Positions 730 through 62,910 of a stretch of DNA of 64,000 bases are shown here, piece after piece. The stretch spans positions 273,193 to 337,192 of the forward strand of contig NZ_JAHTKU010000004.1 in assembly GCF_019192965.1 (NCBI RefSeq). The letters are read 5' to 3'. The DNA comes from Nocardioides daeguensis (lineage in GTDB: Bacteria > Actinomycetota > Actinomycetes > Propionibacteriales > Nocardioidaceae). Made by a program: the position numbers and the translations under genes. The first letter of the stretch is position 1, and each line of letters begins with the position of its first letter. The notes beneath the pieces are model-generated. The model saw nothing but the letters and a program-made list of their open reading frames with translations, made no database searches and was not told where the DNA came from.

Positions 730-2238
730 GTGTTCGTGACGCAGAGTGCACCCACGTCCCCCGCGACGAACCCGCCCGCGACTGCCGAGGTCAACCCCTG
801 GCCGGCCCTGTGGGCCCTGGTCATCGGGTTCTTCATGATCCTGGTCGACCTGACCATCGTGACGGTCGCGACGCCGACGATCATCGAGGACCTCGACGCG
901 TCCGTGAACGACGTCGTGTGGGTGACCAGCGCCTACATGCTCGCCTACGCCGTCCCCGTCCTCATCATGGGACGCCTCGGCGACCGGTTCGGCTCGAAGT
1001 ACCTCTACCTCGCCGGGCTCACCGTCTTCACCCTCGCCTCGCTGTGGTGCGGCCTGACCACCACGGTCGACGGCCTGATCCTGGCCCGGGTGGTGCAGGG
1101 CTTCGGCGCCTCGATGATGACGCCGCAGACGATGGCGATCATCACCCGGATCTTCCCCCCGGCACACCGCGGCAGCGCGATGGCGGTCTGGGGCGCGACG
1201 GCCGGTGTGGCGATGGTGGTCGGCCCGATCCTCGGCGGCGTGCTCACCGACGGCCTCGGCTGGGAGTGGATCTTCTTCGTCAACATCCCCGTCGGCCTGG
1301 TCGCCTTCGTGATGGCGTGGCGCCTGGTCCCGGCGCTCCCGACCCACGCCCACAAGTTCGACTGGCTGGGCGTCGCGCTGTCCGGTGCGGCCATGTTCCT
1401 GCTCTGCTTCGGCATCCAGGAGGGCCACCAGATGGACTGGGCGGGCTGGATCATCGCGATGATCGCCGCCGGTGTCGCGCTGTTCGTCGTGTTCATCGTG
1501 TGGCAGCGCTACAACCGGGCTGAGCCGCTGGTGCCGCTCAGCCTGTTCCGCGACCGCAACTTCTCGGTCTCCAACGTCGCCATCACCTGCATGGGCTCGA
1601 TCGGCGCCTCCTTCGGCTTCCCGCTGATGCTCTACGCCCAGGCGGTCCGCGGGAACTCCCCGACCGAGGCGGCACTGCTCATGGTGCCGATGGCCGTGAT
1701 GTCGATCTTCCTGGCCCAGCCCGTCGGCCGGCTGACCGACCGGCTGCACCCGCGCCAGGTCGTCGGTTTCGGGTTCGCCGCCAGCCTGGTCGGCTTCCTC
1801 CTGCTCATCTGGCGCCTCGAGCCGGGGATCGCGGTGTGGGAGATCGCCGTGCCCATGGGCGTCATCGGCATCGGCAACGCCTTCATCTGGGCGCCGACCG
1901 CCGCCACGGCCAACCGCAACCTGCCGCTGCACCTCGCCGGTGCGGGCGCGGGCGTCTACAACGCCACCCGCCAGGTCGGCTCGGTCCTCGGCGCGGCCGC
2001 GATCGCCGTCCTCATGGACAGCCGCCTGGCCCACTACCTGCCCGGCGCGGCCGCCCACGGCGAGGCCGGGGCGGCCCAGATCCCCGACCCCTACGTTGCC
2101 GAGCTGTTCAGCAAGGCGATGCAGCAGTCGTTGTGGCTGCCCGCGGCGATGTACCTCGTCGGCCTGATCGCCGTGATGTTCTACGAGGTTCCGCGGCACG
2201 AGGGGTTCGGCGCGCCCCAGCCGGCTGCGGCGGAGTGA
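730..2238 (+). CDS. MFS drug-exporter, DHA2 (EmrB/QacA) family
   Basis: A 502-residue inner-membrane protein with about 14 predicted hydrophobic segments, as expected for the 14-helix DHA2 proton antiporters. The first helix is rich in LVIGFFMILVDLTIV; the loop after helix 2 carries the MFS motif A variant GRLGDRFGSKYLYL; the middle has the antiporter motif C type stretch GPILGGVLTDGLGWEWIFFVNIP. The start is the GTG at 730; the GTG at 736 is equally possible. The family exports hydrophobic or cationic toxic compounds; the substrate here cannot be told. No adjacent TetR/MarR regulator is present. It ends at a palindromic repeat. Confidence 0.9.
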   Translation: MFVTQSAPTSPATNPPATAEVNPWPALWALVIGFFMILVDLTIVTVATPTIIEDLDASVNDVVWVTSAYMLAYAVPVLIMGRLGDRFGSKYLYLAGLTVFTLASLWCGLTTTVDGLILARVVQGFGASMMTPQTMAIITRIFPPAHRGSAMAVWGATAGVAMVVGPILGGVLTDGLGWEWIFFVNIPVGLVAFVMAWRLVPALPTHAHKFDWLGVALSGAAMFLLCFGIQEGHQMDWAGWIIAMIAAGVALFVVFIVWQRYNRAEPLVPLSLFRDRNFSVSNVAITCMGSIGASFGFPLMLYAQAVRGNSPTEAALLMVPMAVMSIFLAQPVGRLTDRLHPRQVVGFGFAASLVGFLLLIWRLEPGIAVWEIAVPMGVIGIGNAFIWAPTAATANRNLPLHLAGAGAGVYNATRQVGSVLGAAAIAVLMDSRLAHYLPGAAAHGEAGAAQIPDPYVAELFSKAMQQSLWLPAAMYLVGLIAVMFYEVPRHEGFGAPQPAAAE

Positions 2239-2310
2239 CAGTTTCACCGGCCGGCCGGTGAAACTGGCGCTGGGACGAGGAAACTTCCTCGTCCCAGCGC
2301 CAGTTTTCTC
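2239..2310. repeat. Dispersed palindromic repeat, family 1, copy 1 (two hairpins)
   Basis: 2239-2266 is a perfect 28-bp palindrome whose arms read CAGTTTCACCGG. It is followed by a second inverted repeat (2267-2300) with arms GCGCTGGGACGAGGAA and its complement around AC; the second stem can extend through AAACTG/CAGTTT. It lies between the MFS gene and the end of ilvA, which converge. Closely similar sequences occur at 27202-27233 and 41825-41893. Confidence 0.9.
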
Positions 2311-2323
2311 GTCCAGGCTCGCG

Positions 2324-6666: not shown

Positions 6667-7401
6667 GTGAACTCGCTGGTCGCGACCCCCTTCGTCGTGC
6701 CGATGCTGCTCGGGATCAAGTGGCTCGATCCTGAATGGCTGCAGCACGAATACGGCACCACCTTCATCTGGATCGCGATGGCCATCGTCTTCGTCGAGTG
6801 CGGCCTCTTCTTCCCGTTCCTGCCCGGCGACACGCTGCTGTTCGCCCTCGGCCTGTTCATCGCGGGCAGCAACAAGACCGGCTACTCCGTCGTCGGGATC
6901 TCGAACGAGCCCGTCGAGCTCGCCATCGCCTGCGTCCTGCTGGTGATCGCCGCGTTCGGCGGCAACGTCGCCGGCTACGAGATCGGGCGCAAGCTCGGCC
7001 CGCCGCTGTACCACCGCGAGGGCCGGATCCTGAAGAAGAAGTACTTCGACAACACGAGCGTGTTCTTCGACAAGCACGGCAACAAGGCGTTGGTCATCGG
7101 CCGGTTCGTACCCTTCGTGCGCACTTACATCACCGTGGTCGCGGGCGTGACGCTGATGGAGCGGCGCCGGTTCTTCCTGTGGAGCGCGGTCGGTGCCGTG
7201 CTGTGGGTCGTGTCGATCACCCTGCTCGGCTACTTCCTCGGCGCCGCCATCCCGGCGCTCGGCGAGAACATCGACTACGTGACCCTCGCCATCCTCGCCT
7301 TCTCGGCGGTCCCGCTCGCGTGGGAGTGGTGGCGGCACAAGCGCCCCGGCGCCAAGGCCCGCACCAATGACGCCGTCGAGGTCGACTCGCCCGTCGAGTG
7401 A
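6667..7401 (+). CDS. DedA family membrane protein
   Basis: A 244-residue polytopic membrane protein. The family core is visible: FVECGLFFPFLPGDTLLFALG (residues 40-60), the re-entrant RFVPFVRTYITVVAGVTLMERRRFFLWSAVGAVLWV (about residues 148-183), then a C-terminal helix and a basic, glutamate-rich tail. DedA/SNARE-associated proteins are thought to flip undecaprenyl phosphate or phospholipids and maintain membrane potential. The start is the GTG at 6667. A small hairpin follows at 7407-7426. Confidence 0.93.
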   Translation: MNSLVATPFVVPMLLGIKWLDPEWLQHEYGTTFIWIAMAIVFVECGLFFPFLPGDTLLFALGLFIAGSNKTGYSVVGISNEPVELAIACVLLVIAAFGGNVAGYEIGRKLGPPLYHREGRILKKKYFDNTSVFFDKHGNKALVIGRFVPFVRTYITVVAGVTLMERRRFFLWSAVGAVLWVVSITLLGYFLGAAIPALGENIDYVTLAILAFSAVPLAWEWWRHKRPGAKARTNDAVEVDSPVE

Positions 7402-7406
7402 CCGGT

Positions 7407-7426
7407 CGCCCGGTGGTCGCCGGGCG
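7407..7426 (+). terminator. Putative dedA terminator hairpin
   Basis: CGCCCGG and CCGGGCG form a 7-bp stem around a TGGTCG loop, six bases after the dedA stop. There is no T-run. Confidence 0.45.
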
Positions 7427-7525
7427 TTGGTGGTGACTGTCGGTGCTCGCCGCGATGATTTTCGAAGCGGGCGCCGGTCCAACCGGCATCCACCCCAACC
7501 GACCCAGCCACCCCCAGGAGTCACC

Positions 7526-7960
7526 ATGGCGATCAACCTCAACCCCTACATCAACTGGCGCGGCCAGGCCCGCGAGGCAATGGCGTTCTACCAGTCCGTC
7601 CTCGGCGGCGAGCTCACGATGATGACCTTCGCCGACATGGGCGGCACGGCGATGGGTGTCGCCGAGTCCGAGGTCGACTGGGTGATGCACTCGTCCCTGT
7701 CGGTCTCCGACGCCGTGCTCCTCATGGGCGCCGACCACCCCTCCCACGTGCCCGGCGAGCCGCAGACCCAGCAGGTCAGCATCAGCGGCCCGGCCGAGGA
7801 CGAGGCCACCCTCCGCGCCTGGTGGGAGGGACTCTCCGAGGGCGCGACCGTCCACCAGCCGCTCGAGAAGGCGCCGTGGGGCGACACCTTCGGGATGCTC
7901 TCCGACAAGTACGGCGTCGACTGGCTGGTCAACATCGCCGGCGCGCCGAGCGAGGGCTGA
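7526..7960 (+). CDS. VOC family protein, PhnB/glyoxalase-like
   Basis: A 144-residue protein of the PhnB/3-demethylubiquinone-like branch of the vicinal-oxygen-chelate fold. It starts MAINLNPYINWRGQAREAMAFYQSVLGGEL and contains VLLMGADHPS and EKAPWGDTFGMLSDKYGVDWLVNI, typical of this branch. The ATG at 7526 is preceded by AGGAG at 7516-7520. The family includes small metal-dependent lyases and resistance proteins, but most members are uncharacterised. It ends at a double-hairpin repeat. Confidence 0.9.
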   Translation: MAINLNPYINWRGQAREAMAFYQSVLGGELTMMTFADMGGTAMGVAESEVDWVMHSSLSVSDAVLLMGADHPSHVPGEPQTQQVSISGPAEDEATLRAWWEGLSEGATVHQPLEKAPWGDTFGMLSDKYGVDWLVNIAGAPSEG

Positions 7961-7968
7961 GCCCGGCT

Positions 7969-8030
7969 GCAGGGATCCCCGGATGTCCGGGGATCCCTGC
8001 GCTGGTCAGGGGTTGCAACACCTGACCAGC
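7969..8030. repeat. Dispersed double-hairpin repeat, family 2, copy A
   Basis: Two adjacent inverted repeats. 7969-8000 has arms GCAGGGATCCCCGGA around TG. 8001-8030 has arms GCTGGTCAGG around GGTTGCAACA. It lies between the stops of the VOC gene and pyrE, which converge. Copies B (10946-11010) and C (62842-62906) carry the same two hairpins in the opposite order, so copy A is inverted relative to them. Confidence 0.93.
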
Positions 8031-8052
8031 GCATGAATTGCCTGACCGGTGT

Positions 8053-8088
8053 GACGGCTGGTGCTGCTGGGACGCCTCGCCAGCCGTC
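8053..8088 (-). terminator. pyrE 3' hairpin
   Basis: GACGGCTGG pairs with CCAGCCGTC across an 18-base loop immediately downstream of the pyrE stop on its strand. It can act as the pyrE terminator, in addition to repeat copy A. Confidence 0.5.
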
Positions 8089-8094
8089 GCGACG

Positions 8095-8640
8095 TCAGGC
8101 CTGGGCGGCCGCCCGGGCCGCGTCCAGCTCGGCCTTGGTCAGCACGGCGCGGACCTCGAGCGCCACGTCGGCGAGCGGGTTCTCGCCGGCCGGGCTCCGG
8201 TCGATCGCGCAGACCACGGTCTCCACGACCGCGCCCCCCGCACGCAGCGCGTTGGTCGCGTCGCGGACCGCACCACCGGTGGTGATGACGTCCTCGATGA
8301 GGACCACCTTGCTGCCCTCGTAGGACGGCCCCTCGGCGAGCTTGGCGGTGCCGTACTCCTTGGCCTTCTTGCGGACGAACACGACCGGCAGGCCGACGAG
8401 CTGGCTGACCGCGGTGGCGATCGGGATGCCGCCCATCTCCAGGCCGCCGAGCAGCTCGGCGTCGGCCGGCAGCAGCTGGGCGACCTCGCGGGCGACGCGG
8501 GCGAGGAGGAGCGGGTCCGCCTCGAAGAGGTACTTGTCGAAGTACTCGTTGCTCACCTGGCCGGACCGGAGCACGAACTCACCGGTGAGGCGGCAGGTGG
8601 CGTCGATGTCGGCGGCGAGGGCGGTGTCGGTGGTCGTCAC
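8095..8640 (-). CDS. pyrE: Orotate phosphoribosyltransferase
   Basis: A 181-residue enzyme that joins orotate to PRPP to make OMP in pyrimidine synthesis. The PRPP-binding motif is seen as VVLIEDVITTGGAVRDA (about residues 112-128), the flexible catalytic loop as RKKAKEYGTAK, and the orotate-side region as GLEMGGIPIATAVS. The start is the GTG at 8640. The gene stands alone, divergent from an aminotransferase with only 18 bp between starts, which implies little or no 5' leader. Confidence 0.95.
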   Translation of the reverse strand: MTTTDTALAADIDATCRLTGEFVLRSGQVSNEYFDKYLFEADPLLLARVAREVAQLLPADAELLGGLEMGGIPIATAVSQLVGLPVVFVRKKAKEYGTAKLAEGPSYEGSKVVLIEDVITTGGAVRDATNALRAGGAVVETVVCAIDRSPAGENPLADVALEVRAVLTKAELDAARAAAQA

Positions 8641-8658
8641 GGTTCGACATTATCTATC
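8641..8658. promoter_or_regulatory. Candidate overlapping divergent promoters for leaderless pyrE and aminotransferase
   Basis: The only AT-rich core between the two GTG codons is CATTATCTATC. On the plus strand CATTAT ends five bases before the GTG at 8659. On the minus strand GATAAT ends eight bases before the pyrE GTG at 8640. These spacings suit -10 elements that place transcription starts at or next to both start codons. Neither start has a Shine-Dalgarno sequence. This is inference from sequence only. Confidence 0.45.
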
Positions 8659-9840
8659 GTGCAGGGCGTGCCTCCTGCAGCTCGCCGCGTCGCCGGGATG
8701 GGCGCGACCATCTTCGCCGAGATGTCCGCGCTCGCCGCCCGGACCGGCGCCGTCAACCTCGGCCAGGGATTCCCCGACACCGACGGCCCCCCGGTGATCC
8801 TCGACGCCGCGGTCGCGGCGCTGCGAGGCGGCGCCAACCAGTACGCGCCCGGGCCCGGTGTCCCCGCGCTGCGGCAGGCGATCGCGCGCCACCAGCGGCG
8901 CCGCTACGGCATCGACCTCGACCCGGACCGCGAGGTCGTGGTGACCACCGGCTGCACCGAGGCGATCGCCGGCGCACTCCTCGGCCTGGTCGACCCCGGC
9001 GACGAGGTCGTCGTGCTCGAGCCCTACTACGACTCCTACCCGGCGATGATCGACTTCGCCGGGGGCGTACGACGGCCGGTGACGTTGCGCGCACCCGACT
9101 TCCGCCTCGACCCGACCGAGCTCGCGGCGGCGGTGAGCGACCGGACGAAGCTGATCCTGCTGAACACCCCGCACAACCCCACCGGGCGGGTGCTCGACGC
9201 CGACGAGCTCGTGGCCGTGGCCCGGGTCGCGATCGAGCACGACCTGCTCGTGGTGACCGACGAGGTCTACGAGCACCTCACCTTCGACGCTCGCGCGCAC
9301 GTTCCGCTCGCGACGCTGCCCGGCATGGCCGAGCGGACCCTGACCCTGTCCAGTGCCGGGAAGTCGTGGTCGGTGACCGGCTGGAAGGTCGGCTGGGCGA
9401 CCGGGCCGGCACCGCTGGTCGCCGCCGTCACCGCCGCCAAGCAGTGGCTGACCTTCACCTCCGGCGCGCCACTCCAGCCGGCGGTGGCCGCCGCCCTCGA
9501 CGCCGGCGACGCCTTCCCCACGGCCCTCGCCCACGACCTGCAGGCCCAGCGCGACCAGCTCGTCACGGGCCTGCGTGCGGCCGGCCTGACGACGTACCTG
9601 CCCGAGGGGACCTACTTCGCCACCACGGACGTGAGCGATCTCAGTTGGGCCAGCGGCGGCGACTTCTGCCGCGCGCTGCCCGAGCGGGCCGGCGTGGTGG
9701 CTGTCCCGTCGGAGGTCTTCTACGACGACCCCGACGCCCCCGGCTGCGGCCGGCACCTGGTTCGCTGGGCCTTCTGCAAGCGGCCGGAGGTCATCGCCGA
9801 GGCGGTGCGCCGGCTCGGCGGCGCCGACCTGAGCGCCTGA
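8659..9840 (+). CDS. PLP-dependent aminotransferase, class I/II (DapC / MalY-like)
   Basis: About 393 residues. The PLP lysine lies in TLSSAGKSWSVTGWKVGWATG (near residue 240), the asparagine/tyrosine motif is LNTPHNPTGRV, and DEVYEHLTFD follows. The N-terminal segment IFAEMSALAARTGAVNLGQGFPDTDGP is typical of the actinobacterial subgroup annotated as succinyldiaminopimelate or methionine/kynurenine aminotransferases, so the substrate is unsettled. Candidate starts are GTG 8659, GTG 8668 and ATG 8698; 8659 fits a leaderless start behind CATTAT. Confidence 0.88.
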   Translation: MQGVPPAARRVAGMGATIFAEMSALAARTGAVNLGQGFPDTDGPPVILDAAVAALRGGANQYAPGPGVPALRQAIARHQRRRYGIDLDPDREVVVTTGCTEAIAGALLGLVDPGDEVVVLEPYYDSYPAMIDFAGGVRRPVTLRAPDFRLDPTELAAAVSDRTKLILLNTPHNPTGRVLDADELVAVARVAIEHDLLVVTDEVYEHLTFDARAHVPLATLPGMAERTLTLSSAGKSWSVTGWKVGWATGPAPLVAAVTAAKQWLTFTSGAPLQPAVAAALDAGDAFPTALAHDLQAQRDQLVTGLRAAGLTTYLPEGTYFATTDVSDLSWASGGDFCRALPERAGVVAVPSEVFYDDPDAPGCGRHLVRWAFCKRPEVIAEAVRRLGGADLSA

Positions 9841-9864
9841 GCCGCGGATCGGGCGCGGCCGGGG

Positions 9865-10896
9865 TCAGCGCCCGACGTACCACCGGGCCACCTCGGGCCG
9901 CATCAACAGGCTGGCGATGCCGGCGAAGGCGGCGACCAGGATGACCAGCGGCCAGGCACCGAGCGCGAGGAACAGCGAGAGGGCAGCGCCGCTCGCCGAC
10001 CCGATCGCGAGCACGATCCGCGCCCAGTTCTGTCCGACGAACGCCAGCGCGGCCAGCACGATGGCGCCCAGCGCGCACGCGGCGGCGCCCGCCACGAGCA
10101 CGTAGGTGCCGGCGACGAGGTCGTCCTCGGTGAGGTCCGAGGTGTTCAACCAGGACGGCTGGTCCTTCATCACCTCGGCGAACAGCTCCGCACTGTTGGC
10201 CGACACGTAGGCCGCCATCGCCGCGACCAGCAGCACCATGGCGACCGCCACGGCGCACGTGATCGCACACGCCGCCACCAGCGCGGGCGGCCGGGGGCCG
10301 ACCACGGGGCGCTGCCGGTCGAACGGAAGCGGGGCGTGGGGTACGCCGGGCGCCGGCACGGGCCGCGCCATCGGCGACGCCGACTGCGGCGGCACGGGGC
10401 CGGACTGCGGTGCCGGGGGCCGGAGGGCGGCGAGCCGGGCGGCGCGGCGCTCCTCGTAGCGCTGGATCCACGGGCGGCCGGCGTACCAGTCACGGGTCGG
10501 CTGGAGCCACAGCAGCGCGATCCCGGCGAGGACCATCGGCGCGAGGAAGCCCGCGGTGGCGAGGCCGCCGACGAACAGCAGCGGCGACAGGGCGGTCAGC
10601 GCGATCCGGGCGCTCGCGGAGCGGCGGAAGACCTGGATGCCGAGGATCGCCGAGGCGGTCGCGGCGCCCGCACCAATCATGCAGAGCACCCGGATCGTCG
10701 CGGAGAGGGCGTCGACGTCCATGCCGAGATCGGCGGTCATCGGCTCGGTGAGGATCCGCTGCAGCTCCTCCTGCACCTCGAGGGTGTGCAGGCTGGAGAT
10801 CCGCTGCCAGGCGGCGAGGACGACGAACACCGACCCGCCGACGATCAGCGCGCCCGCCAGCGTCGCCTGTCCCGGCCGGGGCTGCTCCTCGCTCAT
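9865..10896 (-). CDS. Hypothetical multi-pass membrane protein
   Basis: 343 residues from the ATG at 10896 (MSEEQPRPGQATLAG). There are about seven hydrophobic segments: one near residue 20, two or three between 65 and 130, then a proline-rich cytoplasmic linker (PPAPQSGPVPPQSASP, about residues 160-200), then four more towards the C-terminus (CAITCAVAVAMVLLVAAM, YVLVAGAAACALGAIVLAALAF, and others). I do not recognise the family. The internal proline-rich linker between two membrane halves is its most distinctive trait. It lies downstream of clpB on the same strand but is separated from it by repeat copy B. Confidence 0.7.
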   Translation of the reverse strand: MSEEQPRPGQATLAGALIVGGSVFVVLAAWQRISSLHTLEVQEELQRILTEPMTADLGMDVDALSATIRVLCMIGAGAATASAILGIQVFRRSASARIALTALSPLLFVGGLATAGFLAPMVLAGIALLWLQPTRDWYAGRPWIQRYEERRAARLAALRPPAPQSGPVPPQSASPMARPVPAPGVPHAPLPFDRQRPVVGPRPPALVAACAITCAVAVAMVLLVAAMAAYVSANSAELFAEVMKDQPSWLNTSDLTEDDLVAGTYVLVAGAAACALGAIVLAALAFVGQNWARIVLAIGSASGAALSLFLALGAWPLVILVAAFAGIASLLMRPEVARWYVGR

Positions 10897-10945
10897 GGCC
10901 CCATTCCACCAGACCGCCCCACACGTCACACCGGATGGGCGAGTC

Positions 10946-11010
10946 ATGCGCTTGTCAGGGGTTGCAACCCCTGACAAGCGCATGGATCCCCGGATGTCCG
11001 GGGATCCATG
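10946..11010. repeat. Dispersed double-hairpin repeat, family 2, copy B
   Basis: 10946-10983 is a perfect 38-bp palindrome (arm ATGCGCTTGTCAGGGGTTG). 10981-11010 is a second perfect inverted repeat with arm CATGGATCCCCGGA around TG. It sits eight bases past the clpB stop on clpB's strand, so it could act as the clpB terminator. It is the best-preserved copy in the window. Confidence 0.95.
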
Positions 11011-11018
11011 CACCAGCC

Positions 11019-13610
<2,592 letters not shown>

Positions 13611-27201: not shown

Positions 27202-27233
27202 GACAGTTTCACCGGCCGACCGGTGAAACTGTC
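27202..27233. repeat. Dispersed palindromic repeat, family 1, copy 2 (single hairpin)
   Basis: A 32-bp inverted repeat with arms GACAGTTTCACCGG and its complement around CCGA. It matches the first hairpin of copies 1 and 3 but lacks the second hairpin (CTGGGACGAGGAA). It sits between the divergent AKR and SDR starts, unlike the other two, which are at gene ends. Confidence 0.9.
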
Positions 27234-34876: not shown

Positions 34877-34994
34877 CTGAGGTAGGCCGCCACATCGGAC
34901 AAGGTCCCTATGTTCGGGACCTCCCTACCTCAGGTTCCCGGCGCGGGCACCTCAGGCCGCGGTCCCCCAGATCGTTCGATCGAACGGCCTGAGG
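34877..34994. promoter_or_regulatory. Two nested inverted repeats in a divergent intergenic region
   Basis: CTGAGGTAGG (34877) is mirrored by CCTACCTCAG (34924); inside, AGGTCCC (34902) pairs with GGGACCT (34916). A second set, CCTCAGGCCG (34950) with CGGCCTGAGG (34985), encloses the palindrome CGTTCGATCGAACG (34973-34986). The region separates the minus-strand miniprotein/LAL unit from the plus-strand nitroreductase. These may be operators; I cannot assign a regulator. Confidence 0.5.
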
Positions 34995-35025
34995 GCCCCA
35001 CGACCTCCGCCCCTAGGCTGGCCCC

Positions 35026-40935: not shown

Positions 40936-41802
40936 ATGAGCGACTTCAAGCCCCTGCGCTCCGTCCTCTACATGCCCAGCTCCAACGAGCGGGCCCTGGA
41001 GAAGGCGAAGACGCTGCCCGCCGACGCGATCATCTTCGACCTCGAGGACGCGGTCGCGCCCGACGCGAAGCCGGAGGCCCGCAAGGCCGCCGCGGCCGCC
41101 GTCCAGTCCGGTGAGTACGGCGACCGCCACCTCATCATCCGGGTCAACGGCATCGGCACCGAGTGGCACGCCGACGACATCCGCGCCGCCGCGCAGGCCG
41201 GCCCCGACGTCGTCCTCGTCCCCAAGGTGAACTCCGCCGAGGAGGTCCGCGAGCTCGTCGACGCCCTCGCCGCCGCCGGCGCGCCCGAGAAGACCACGCT
41301 GTGGGCGATGGTCGAGACGCCGATCGGCATGCTGAACGCGCTCTCGATCGCCACCGCCTCCGAGCGCCTGACCGGCTTCGTGATGGGCACCAACGACCTC
41401 GTCAAGGAGCTGTACGCCGAGCACGTGCCCGGCCGCCAGCCCGTGATCACCGGTCTCGGCCTGGCGCTGCTCGCGGCCCGGGCCGCCGGCATCGTGATCA
41501 TCGACGGCGTCTACAACGACGTGAAGAACGTCGAGGGCTTCCTCGCCGAGGTCGAGCAGGGCCGGCAGATGGGCTTCGACGGCAAGACCCTGATCCACCC
41601 GGGCCAGGTCGAGGGCGCCAACTCCGGCTTCGCCCCGAGCGAGCAGGCCGTCGAAGACGCCCGCGGCCTGATCCAGGCCTGGGAGGACGGCAAGGGCGCC
41701 GGTGTGGTCACCTACAACGGCAAGATGGTGGAGAGCCTCCACGTCGAGTCCGCCGAGCGCACGCTCGCGATCCACGAGGCGATCCAGGCCCTGCAGGCCT
41801 GA
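40936..41802 (+). CDS. CoA ester lyase, CitE-like
   Basis: 288 residues, ATG at 40936 preceded by an indistinct SD. It has the classic CitE features: LRSVLYMPSSNERALEKA, DLEDAVAPDAKPEAR, IRVNGIGTEWHADD, VETPIGMLNALSIA, and MGTNDLVKELYAE, ending KTLIHPGQVEGANSGFAPS. Members cleave citramalyl-CoA, malyl-CoA or hydroxymethylglutaryl-like esters. It is only 5 bp after the malyl-CoA lyase, so the two act in one pathway. A family-1 repeat lies immediately downstream. Confidence 0.9.
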   Translation: MSDFKPLRSVLYMPSSNERALEKAKTLPADAIIFDLEDAVAPDAKPEARKAAAAAVQSGEYGDRHLIIRVNGIGTEWHADDIRAAAQAGPDVVLVPKVNSAEEVRELVDALAAAGAPEKTTLWAMVETPIGMLNALSIATASERLTGFVMGTNDLVKELYAEHVPGRQPVITGLGLALLAARAAGIVIIDGVYNDVKNVEGFLAEVEQGRQMGFDGKTLIHPGQVEGANSGFAPSEQAVEDARGLIQAWEDGKGAGVVTYNGKMVESLHVESAERTLAIHEAIQALQA

Positions 41803-41824
41803 TCTTCAGAGATCCGGCCGGGGA

Positions 41825-41893
41825 CAGTTTCGCCGGCCGGCCGGTGAAACTCACGCTGGGACGAGGAAGCTTCCTCGTCCCAGCGTGAGTTTT
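41825..41893. repeat. Dispersed palindromic repeat, family 1, copy 3 (two hairpins)
   Basis: First hairpin 41825-41852 (CAGTTTCGCCGG... with one mismatch relative to copy 1). Second hairpin with arms AACTCACGCTGGGACGAGGAA around GC and its complement. It lies between the stops of the CitE-like gene and the convergent SGNH-lipoprotein gene. Orientation is the same as in copy 1. Confidence 0.9.
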
Positions 41894-41904
41894 GTCGTCC
41901 AGGC

Positions 41905-42771
41905 TCAGCGCAGCTCGTCGACCAGCAGGTCGGCGACGACCTGCTGCTCCCGGGCGTACGGGTGGTACTCGAGGCCCGCCTCGGCGGGGACCAGCCCGGC
42001 GATCCACGGATCGGTGGAGCAGATGTCGTGGCCGTCGGTGGCGGTCCAGACGTCGACGTACGCGACGCCCGCCTGGTCGGCCGCGGCGGCCAGCCCCTCG
42101 TTGATCCGGCTGACGTAGTCGCGCGCGTACGGGTAGTCGCCGCGGGCGAGCGGCAGCAGGTCGCAGGTGCCGGCGGCCGGGAAGATCGCCGGGTACCCGA
42201 CGACGATGACCGTCGCCTTCGGCGCACGCTCCCGGACCGCCTCGATGGACTCGACCATGCGGGCGGGAAGCCGGCCGAGCTGCCGCTCCACCTTGGTCCG
42301 GAAGGACGCGCCCGGCGCCGTGCACGGCGCGCCGTCGGGGTCCTTGACCGCCTTGCCGACGCAGGTCGTCATCAGCTCGGAGAAGGTCTTGCCGTCGTTG
42401 CCGCCGATGCCGATCGTCACCAGGTCGGTGGACGCGCTCAGCGCGTCGAGCTGGGGCGGCACCGGCTCGCCGTTCGGCGGGGTCTGCGACTGCGCGAGGT
42501 CGGCGCTCGTCGCACCACCGCAGGTGACGTCGGTGAGCTCGAGGTCGAGCCGCTCGGCCAGCAGGTGGGGGTAGTTCCCCTTCGTCTGCTCGCAGCCGAC
42601 CGGTCCCGTGTTCGGGCCGAGCCGGGGCCCGGCGGCGTAGGAGTCCCCCAGGGCGACGTACGACGCCCCGTCCCGCGCCGCGTCCGCGCGGCTGATCTTG
42701 GACTCCGGCGGGTCGGAGCACCCGGCGAGCAGGACCGCGGCCACGACCAGCAGGGAGGCGGCACGCCTCAT
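41905..42771 (-). CDS. SGNH/GDSL-family lipoprotein esterase
   Basis: 288 residues. A lipoprotein signal peptide with lipobox LLAGCSDPP (Cys about residue 18) is followed by the SGNH blocks: GDSYAAGP (catalytic Ser), GIGGNDG (oxyanion Gly/Asn) and the C-terminal DxxH (residues EAGLEYHPYAREQQVV). Six other Cys residues may form disulphides. It is a surface-anchored lipase or esterase. Its ATG overlaps the stop of the upstream PucR-type gene (ATGA), so both are translationally coupled. Confidence 0.9.
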   Translation of the reverse strand: MRRAASLLVVAAVLLAGCSDPPESKISRADAARDGASYVALGDSYAAGPRLGPNTGPVGCEQTKGNYPHLLAERLDLELTDVTCGGATSADLAQSQTPPNGEPVPPQLDALSASTDLVTIGIGGNDGKTFSELMTTCVGKAVKDPDGAPCTAPGASFRTKVERQLGRLPARMVESIEAVRERAPKATVIVVGYPAIFPAAGTCDLLPLARGDYPYARDYVSRINEGLAAAADQAGVAYVDVWTATDGHDICSTDPWIAGLVPAEAGLEYHPYAREQQVVADLLVDELR

Positions 42772-56184: not shown

Positions 56185-56643
56185 ATGCGCGTCTCCGCCA
56201 AGTCCGACTACGCACTGCGGGCCCTGATCGCCATGGCGAGCAGGTCCGACGGTCGGGCCGTGAGCGCCGAGGAGCTCGGACGCCTCCAGGACATCCCCCA
56301 CGGCTTCCTCCAGGCGATCCTCGCCGACCTGCGCCGCGCGGGCATCGTGATGTCCCAGCGCGGCCAGTCCGGCGGCTGGCGGATGGCCCGCGAGGCCACC
56401 ACCGTCTCCGTCGCCGACGTCATCCGCGCCGTCGACGGCCCGCTCGTCTCCGTCTACGGACTGCGCCCCGAGGCGGTCAACTACAACGAGGCCGCCGAGG
56501 TGCTCCAGCACGTCTGGATCGCCGCCCGCCGCGCCCTGCGCGAGGTGTTCGAGGACGTCTCGATCCAACAGCTCGCCGACGGCCAGCTCCCCGAGGCCGT
56601 CACCAGCCGCACCGCGGACGACGACGCCTGGGCGCCGCACTGA
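56185..56643 (+). CDS. Rrf2 family transcriptional regulator, cysteine-free
   Basis: 152 residues. Winged HTH: MRVSAKSDYALRALIAMASRSDGRAVSAEELGRLQDIPHGFLQAILADLRRAGIVMSQRGQSGGWRMAREATTVSVADVIRAVDG. Rrf2 regulators such as IscR and NsrR bind a [Fe-S] cluster through three Cys, but this protein contains no Cys, so it cannot hold that type of cluster. It may sense another signal, as in CymR or similar. It is convergent with the 56748-57416 gene and monocistronic. Upstream, TGAATCGATCGAGCAATCTGACAG holds a possible operator. Confidence 0.85.
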   Translation: MRVSAKSDYALRALIAMASRSDGRAVSAEELGRLQDIPHGFLQAILADLRRAGIVMSQRGQSGGWRMAREATTVSVADVIRAVDGPLVSVYGLRPEAVNYNEAAEVLQHVWIAARRALREVFEDVSIQQLADGQLPEAVTSRTADDDAWAPH

Positions 56644-56671
56644 TCGGCATCCACCGCCTGGTCCCCCTTTT

Positions 56672-56746
56672 CGTTCGATCGAACGGATAGGCGGACTTCT
56701 GCGCCGCAATCTCCCCCGAATCGTTCGATCGAACGAACAGGGGGAG
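56672..56746. repeat. Two copies of the CGTTCGATCGAACG palindrome between convergent genes
   Basis: CGTTCGATCGAACG occurs at 56672-56685 and 56722-56735. The second is enclosed by CTCCCCC (56711-56717) and GGGGGAG (56740-56746), forming a longer hairpin that may terminate the minus-strand gene. The same 14-mer is found at 34973-34986. Confidence 0.75.
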
Positions 56747-56747
56747 C

Positions 56748-62251: not shown

Positions 62252-62827
62252 GTGCTGCTCAGCGACCGCGACATCACCGCCGAGATCGACGCCGGACGGA
62301 TCGCCCTCGAACCCTACGAGCCCGCCATGCTGCAGCCGTCGTCCATCGACGTGCGCCTGGACCGGTTCTTCCGGGTCTTCGACAACCACAAGTACCCGTC
62401 GATCGACCCGGCCGCCGACCAGTCCGACCTCACCCGGGTGGTGGAGCCGGAGGGCGAGGAGCCGTTCATCCTGCACCCGGGCGAGTTCGTGCTCGGCTCG
62501 ACGTACGAGGTCGTCACCCTGCCCGACGACATCGCCGCACGCGTCGAGGGCAAGTCGTCCCTGGGCCGGCTCGGGCTGCTCACCCACGCGACCGCCGGCT
62601 TCGTGGACCCCGGGTTCTCCGGCCACGTCACGCTCGAGCTCGCCAACGTGGCGACGCTGCCGATCAAGCTCTACCCCGGCATGAAGATCGGCCAGTTCTG
62701 CTTCTTCCGGCTCTCCTCGCCGAGCGAGCACCCGTACGGCTCGGAGAAGTACGGCTCGCGCTACCAGGGCCAGCGCGGCCCGACGCCGTCGCGCTCGTTC
62801 CAGAACTTCCACCGCACGCAGATCTGA
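62252..62827 (+). CDS. dcd: dCTP deaminase
   Basis: 191 residues from the GTG at 62252, the usual family length. Motifs: [13 protein letters not shown] at the start, [16 protein letters not shown] (nucleotide-binding), [31 protein letters not shown] (catalytic Arg/Glu region), [18 protein letters not shown], and the C-terminal lid ending [14 protein letters not shown]. The enzyme turns dCTP into dUTP (or dUMP in bifunctional forms) for dTTP synthesis. Repeat copy C follows the stop. Confidence 0.96.
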
Positions 62828-62841
62828 CACGGACGCACTTC

Positions 62842-62906
62842 ATGCGCTGGTCAGGCGTTGCAACCCCTGACAAGCGCATGAATCCCCGGACATCCGGGGA
62901 TCCATG
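62842..62906. repeat. Dispersed double-hairpin repeat, family 2, copy C
   Basis: First hairpin (62842-62879) with arms ATGCGCTGGTCAGGCGTTG and the complement of CAACCCCTGACAAGCGCAT; it has a few mismatches relative to copy B. Second hairpin (62877-62906) with arms CATGAATCCCCGGA around CA. It is placed 14 bp after the dcd stop and ends four bases before the IdeR box. Confidence 0.92.
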
Positions 62907-62910
62907 CAGG

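Follow-up and report, generated by a model that had tools for sequence, protein, structure and literature searches.

Higgins reportedly asked in 1988, in a title, whether repetitive extragenic palindromic (REP) sequences evolve by gene conversion. REP and REPIN elements are dispersed gene-end palindromes in both orientations, associated in REPtrons with a lone DNA-processing gene, that of the REP-associated transposase (RAYT), flanked by repeats (available excerpts of PMC3733652). Here we describe a palindrome family found in a 64,000-nt stretch of the Nocardioides daeguensis genome (contig NZ_JAHTKU010000004.1, positions 273,193 to 337,192; hereafter the window), which holds three of its copies, A, B and C. 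Each element consists of a hairpin H1, a hairpin H2 and a tail. At sites shared between species the elements are homogenised within each genome, and two inverted copies bracket the gene of a predicted nuclease. We consider it probable, if well short of certain, that these are REP-like gene-end palindromes and that their likely cognate protein is the bracketed predicted nuclease, which would recognise, copy and homogenise the element.

The family shares with REP sequences dispersed palindromes located in convergent and tandem gaps near 3' ends, and it shares, with an unrelated protein, the repeat-flanked DNA-processing gene (a nuclease by prediction). It differs from REP/RAYT systems in that the protein is AbiEi-like and Vsr/EDxHD-like, with no Y1/HUH domain found, and in that the element is about 107 nt long, has two or three hairpins and is strongly homogenised at species-shared sites. 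The original prediction, made from the window's letters, had called the repeats REP/BIME-like (BIME, bacterial interspersed mosaic element) and proposed a search for a RAYT gene. The RAYT Y1 family PF01797 gave no match in the source genome and none in the 37 of 59 Nocardioides genomes searched, the source included, while control genomes gave matches; neither a GTAG nor a CGTC tag (as defined in the excerpts of PMC3733652) was found at the ends of the 23-copy consensus. The family resembles a REP-RAYT system in its way of working, but as both of these defining features were tested and not found, it was not filed under REP-RAYT.

In its predicted structure, the catalytic domain of the bracketed protein resembles in fold those of Vsr and of EDxHD homing endonucleases such as I-Bth0305I, from which the protein differs in that it is free-standing, carries a fused AbiEi-like domain and has its gene between copies of a dispersed repeat. 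The AbiEi antitoxin (6y8q) and Rv2827c (1zel) have the AbiEi-like fold, to which the protein described here adds a nuclease domain. A gene for the AbiEii partner was not seen inside the unit, the scan covering the interval between the repeats, and each of four units read held one plausible gene. A miniature inverted-repeat transposable element (MITE) has its terminal inverted repeats in common with an autonomous element; in the source genome the bracketed unit shares H1-H2 with the dispersed copies, which does not imply autonomous movement. No report of the nuclease-repeat association was found among the titles and abstract beginnings listed in searches of an open-access library.

Copy number, anatomy and placement of the element

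With up to 3 mismatches allowed, the source genome (G000, 4.66 Mb) has the H2 core at 28 places and H1 at 40, of which 32 are exact. Reversed-pattern controls gave 0 places for both, so the repeat is not a chance occurrence. The H1 and H2 patterns and the listed matches of a covariance model were merged by hand into 29 distinct places. The model was built from an alignment (A1) of 65 copies, which omits two fetched loci (L015 and L055; L numbers denote fetched loci throughout), 32 of the 59 named-genome copies and all Nocardioides limicola copies; the same 29 places were among the matches listed for it.

Conservation across 23 aligned copies (of the 29), with L049 flipped, delimits a 107-nt element that spans positions -39 to +67 relative to the core and whose left edge is sharp. 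The consensus leaves out L055 and five copies with the structure H1-H2-H3, in which both outer hairpins are similar. The tail carries a further half-site resembling the right arm of H2, and in each of the seven genomes tested this resemblance exceeds that of tails after shuffling. The half-site clearly tracks the genome's own H2 arm in G041 only, and not in G013; tracking across species is weak. No Rfam family was found for the elements, either in the whole window or at loci L012, L054 and L068.

Pairing was evaluated on the 65 aligned sequences. Across the two stems 93.3% of pairs are standard, and double-change cells number 136 versus 47 in shuffles, with 5 to 26 in slid controls. The number of pairs changed on both sides was not above shuffles (11 versus 10.2), and one pair internal to H2 is unpaired in 35 sequences. 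Predicted folds lay 5.1 to 12.5 standard deviations (SD) below shuffles in all eight stretches folded. When copies of the H1-H2-H3 type were folded, L060 (G053) and L015 (G000) formed one long nested hairpin and L013 three hairpins.

The placement of the element is terminator-like. With a simple codon-model gene finder, 15 of the 29 places fell in convergent gaps, 13 in tandem gaps and one in a divergent gap; a background of 37 further gaps, each 80 nt or longer, comprised 7 convergent, 17 tandem and 13 divergent (p 0.008 for convergent, p 0.002 for divergent). The stop side is the nearer to the element in 12 of the 13 tandem gaps, and the distance from stop to H1, on the H1 side, is usually about 4 to 20 nt (distances measured from the core, less 36 nt to reach the edge of H1). 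The same convergent and tandem, terminator-like placement is reported for REPs (excerpts of PMC3733652). Strong hairpins directly 3' of the stops of convergent genes are also a property of bidirectional intrinsic terminators, from which the elements differ in their conserved sequence, in genome-wide repetition with homogenisation and in the lack of a T-tract at copies A and B (scan of window positions 7000-12000, which excludes copy C). A terminator or 3'-end role of the hairpins is plausible, and is separate from the reading that involves the nuclease.

Concerted evolution at sites shared between species

The exact core was found in 67 stretches of GTDB contigs, all from Nocardioides save one metagenome-assembled genome (MAG) of Actinomycetota, and in no viral contig (IMG/VR scan of the H2 core). 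The covariance model found the family in at least 49 of 59 Nocardioides genomes and in at least one of 37 other genomes of the order, that is, in at least 50 of 96; per-genome counts are lower bounds, with at most 51 candidates scored per genome. At up to 1 mismatch, the core pattern was present in only 4 of the 96, the source genome included, from which it follows that pattern scans undercount.

Flanking sequences were used to identify orthologous sites. Ten of 14 fetched copies of G055 and six of eight of G041 occupy sites that also carry the element in G000, one of the six G041 sites resting on a single flank. Orientation is kept at all orthologous pairs without a triple: 29 of 31 were scored so by script and two were corrected by eye, both involving L087, which has a one-base deletion in H1. 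One pair with a triple was unscored for orientation.

The elements at these sites evolve in concert, homogenised within each genome. Over the 72 nt of H1-H2, copies at orthologous sites were no more alike than copies at other sites (identity 0.828 vs 0.827, 0.738 vs 0.733 and 0.736 vs 0.736), and copies inside one genome were 0.87-0.90 alike. The nearest neighbour belonged to the copy's own species for 116 of 119 copies from 10 genomes, the exceptions coming from the two species represented by just one or two copies (omitted were 19 copies of G053, three of B-3, two of RYN_210 and one of the UFO MAG; three near contig ends were dropped). The 25 nt immediately outside H1 retain orthology between species while H1-H2 does not, indicating that homogenisation ends sharply on the H1 side. 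Orthology of the tail is kept between G000 and G055 and in two pairs of G000 with SLBN-35, and is absent from the comparisons with G041.

Two elements of G000 at old sites, L007 and L014, differ from each other by at most 1 in 68 nt, and each is about 17-19% different from its own G055 orthologue. In G013, an identical mispaired H2 stem, in either orientation, is common to 9 of 16 fetched copies, which favours copying over site-by-site selection on pairing.

The 3' side of clpB was compared by eye in 30 genomes. G000, G055, G041 and G002 each have their own version of the element, G017 has a half-like sequence, G034 has a 4-nt gap, and the remaining genomes have unrelated hairpins, repeats or short gaps. 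Other Nocardioides (L168, L181, L183) have a different repeat, GGTTGAGGTGCGAGGAGCGCCAGCG-like, 3' of clpB; in G033 (L166) the same position shows a sequence resembling the tail but no H1-H2, a pattern that loss of the hairpins could have left.

Nuclease genes bracketed by palindromes

On a different contig from the window, two inverted copies 1.1 kb apart (L012 and L054) enclose one plausible gene, coding for a protein of 326 aa. The same bracketed plan was found in G055, G041 and G053, the G053 unit being located at another genomic site. An RNA gene had been suspected in the L012-L054 gap, which gave no Rfam match and contained an open reading frame (ORF).

The structure predicted for the protein (pLDDT 92, predicted local distance difference test) comprises an AbiEi-like domain and a Vsr/EDxHD homing-endonuclease-like domain, the latter falling outside the aligned AbiEi chain; the fold is also common to mitoribosome chains. 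The protein is thus predicted to be a homing-endonuclease-like nuclease with an AbiEi-like N-terminal part. As candidate catalytic residues, E214, D246, E257, D259, K263, E281 and R284 are invariant in 33 sequences. Profile searches gave no significant match among PDB sequences (AbaSI, E 0.24) and no NCBIfam family for the protein, and Pfam DUF559 matched 2 of the 33 members (best E 0.016).

The covariance model (E up to 0.1) was run on the best homologue from each of 30 genomes: 22 had inverted copies on both sides, six on one side and two none. Strict self-BLAST was applied to 41 homologous loci, namely the 30 best homologues, ten second paralogues and G053. It detected bracketing in 26 of the 41 versus 1 of 89 control genes (1 of 30 clpB loci, 0 of 28 window genes, 0 of 31 other genes), and a looser setting gave the same counts. 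Adding the evidence from the model and from a repeat finder raised the number to 38 of 41, where the repeat finder's share comes from 12 loci, with no controls, and the like-for-like comparison stays that of 26/41 with 1/89. The remaining three are L239 and L267, cut by contig ends, and L262, which is one-sided. The 31 first-type units fall into 15 site clusters and the 10 second-type units into 5.

In G055 the bracketing copies are of the GTTGACGG type (L230) and the fetched dispersed copies of the GTC[A/G]GG type (L193-L197); a replacement is perhaps under way.

A partnership of repeat and protein predicts that further palindrome families come with a paralogue of their own, and such pairing of repeat family and paralogue was observed. 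A second homologue in the source genome (C30:133150-134064) is bracketed by a different palindrome family, sister family 1, with arms 94% complementary over 78 nt; this family has 31 H1 places in G000 at up to 3 mismatches. The genome of G048 gave no match to the first model; its nuclease lies between copies of yet another palindrome, which has 49 matches in the genome, with about 21 near-full-length places. G074 belongs to a different family of the order; the repeat around its nuclease has 70 matches when both strands are included, and with 9 Y1_Tnp matches in this genome another mover is possible there. At the level of the order, 10 of 16 homologues were bracketed, several with arms only 60-69% identical, versus 1 of 89 controls at the setting used.

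Elements and a close nuclease also co-occur among the 59 Nocardioides genomes (fourfold counts 37, 6, 4, 12; p 1.8e-5, with thresholds chosen after seeing the data and a p value that ignores kinship). For 14 of the 22 two-sided units, those with a fetched clpB locus, nuclease distance correlated with repeat distance, given clpB distance (partial r 0.35, p 0.002).

In AbiEi the corresponding part binds DNA. In the bracketed protein the AbiEi-like N-terminal part would bind the element and the nuclease would nick or cut it; repair from another copy would then overwrite the old sequence by gene conversion, or move the unit. Copies might persist because the double hairpin serves as a two-way transcription terminator or as a stabiliser of the mRNA 3' end. 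Recognition and breakage of the element by the nuclease, driving copying and homogenisation, would account for the bracketing, for the pairing of families with paralogues, for concerted evolution and for the absence of RAYT. Two observations weigh against this reading: 6 of 43 genomes have elements without a close nuclease, and the repeats of the G055 unit are unlike the fetched dispersed copies.

A rival would be plain homologous gene conversion among terminator repeats, with the nuclease as a passenger or a selfish inserter at repeats: recombination alone suffices for homogenisation at conserved sites, and the same six genomes would fit. We regard this explanation as rather unlikely. Repeat families unrelated to one another bracket such genes repeatedly (20 site clusters, 41 units), each family going with a particular paralogue or homologue, a pairing not expected of chance insertion, and ordinary recombination is inefficient between repeats that are about 100 bp long and 90% identical.

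Position directly 3' of stops, stable folds (z -5.1 to -12.5, eight stretches) and covarying stems would also be expected of ordinary intrinsic terminators, or of a binding site co-evolving with a trans factor, changed by point mutation under selection at each site. This is decidedly unlikely: L007 and L014 are nearly identical within G000 yet far from their G055 orthologues, the mispaired stem of G013 is not a product of selection on pairing, and copies A and B lack a T-tract.

It is very improbable that the gene is an AbiE-like toxin-antitoxin or defence gene with the flanking inverted repeats as its own operators; the repeats lie on both sides of the gene and recur at 20 to 30 places elsewhere in the genome, the four units read have a single plausible gene each, and the nuclease domain lies outside the AbiEi chain. 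A REP/BIME family moved by a RAYT (Y1, HUH) transposase, to which palindromes at 3' gene ends in both orientations and the published REP placement (excerpts of PMC3733652) would point, is scarcely credible given that no Y1_Tnp was found in the 37 Nocardioides searched, G000 among them, and no GTAG or CGTC tag was seen at the consensus ends.

Extended to the Propionibacteriales, the nuclease reading would describe "homing palindromes": two-domain AbiEi-EDxHD nucleases encoded between inverted copies of a composite hairpin element, each lineage spreading and overwriting its own dispersed hairpin family through gene conversion of a cut-and-copy kind. Drift in nuclease specificity would then rewrite the terminators of a genome in concert. 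We hold the chances of this wider proposal to be evenly balanced. If the nuclease reading is right, the REP-RAYT idea would gain a second type of protein, unrelated to the first, non-coding repeats at gene ends would be a target of a homing-type nuclease, and a selfish element would shape many 3' ends in these bacteria. The gene-conversion question can be tested in this system, which offers species-shared sites, per-genome homogenisation and a candidate enzyme encoded between copies.

Window copies and neighbouring palindrome families

The features of the window are listed in Table 1. By Pfam, the neighbouring genes are glyoxalase-family and phosphoribosyltransferase-domain genes (copy A), clpB (copy B) and dcd (copy C), in agreement with the original prediction that all three copies follow gene ends. 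It had placed the copies at 7969-8030, 10946-11010 and 62842-62906, where they are indeed present as described, with copy A in the orientation opposite to B and C, and the compensatory changes it noticed between A and B are real. For copy B, its perfect 38-bp palindrome (H2) was recovered; its perfect 30-bp palindrome holds for the arms of H1 alone, which enclose a 2-nt centre. The idea of a dispersed family in an actinobacterium, in both orientations and with covarying stems, was borne out in Nocardioides, and with 29 places in the genome the case of only three copies did not arise. The description was incomplete in that the element is longer (107 nt) and in that concerted evolution and the bracketed nuclease gene had been missed.

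Table 1. Palindromic elements of the window, in coordinates of the 64,000-nt stretch (CM, covariance model)
Feature	Position	Strand	Context and evidence
Copy A, whole element H1-H2-tail, 107 nt	7966..8072	+	convergent gap; family consensus; CM match G000:C25:281158-281229 +
Copy A, H1 (GCAGGGATCCCCGG ATGT CCGGGGATCCCTGC)	7969..8000	+	sequence, fold
Copy A, H2, core GTCAGGGGTTGCAACACCTGAC at 8005-8026	7999..8032	+	sequence, genome pattern search, fold
Copy A, tail with CCTGAC half-site	8033..8072	+	position conservation, 23 copies
Copy B, whole element	10908..11014	-	just 3' of clpB (stop 11019-11021); CM match G000:C25:284135-284206 -
Copy B, H2, perfect 38-bp palindrome	10946..10983	-	sequence
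Copy B, H1, 15 pairs around 2-nt centre	10980..11011	-	sequence
Copy C, shortened tail	62828..62910	-	just 3' of dcd (stop 62825-62827); CM match G000:C25:336031-336102 -
Copy C, H2, two mispairs	62842..62879	-	sequence, fold
Copy C, H1	62876..62907	-	sequence
Sister family 1 element, same plan (H1 GTTTCACCGGCCGGCCGGTGAAAC, then H2)	2237..2320	+	convergent gap
Sister family 1 element	41823..41906	+	convergent gap

A lone H1 hairpin of sister family 1 lies at 27202-27231 in a divergent gap, unlike the gene-end copies. A third palindrome family, around TCGTTCGATCGAACGA, was seen at 34963-34996, 56662-56695 and 56712-56745. The window has six convergent gaps that are 80 nt or longer, and four of them (2238-2323, 7960-8094, 41802-41904 and 56643-56747) contain a member of one of the three families.
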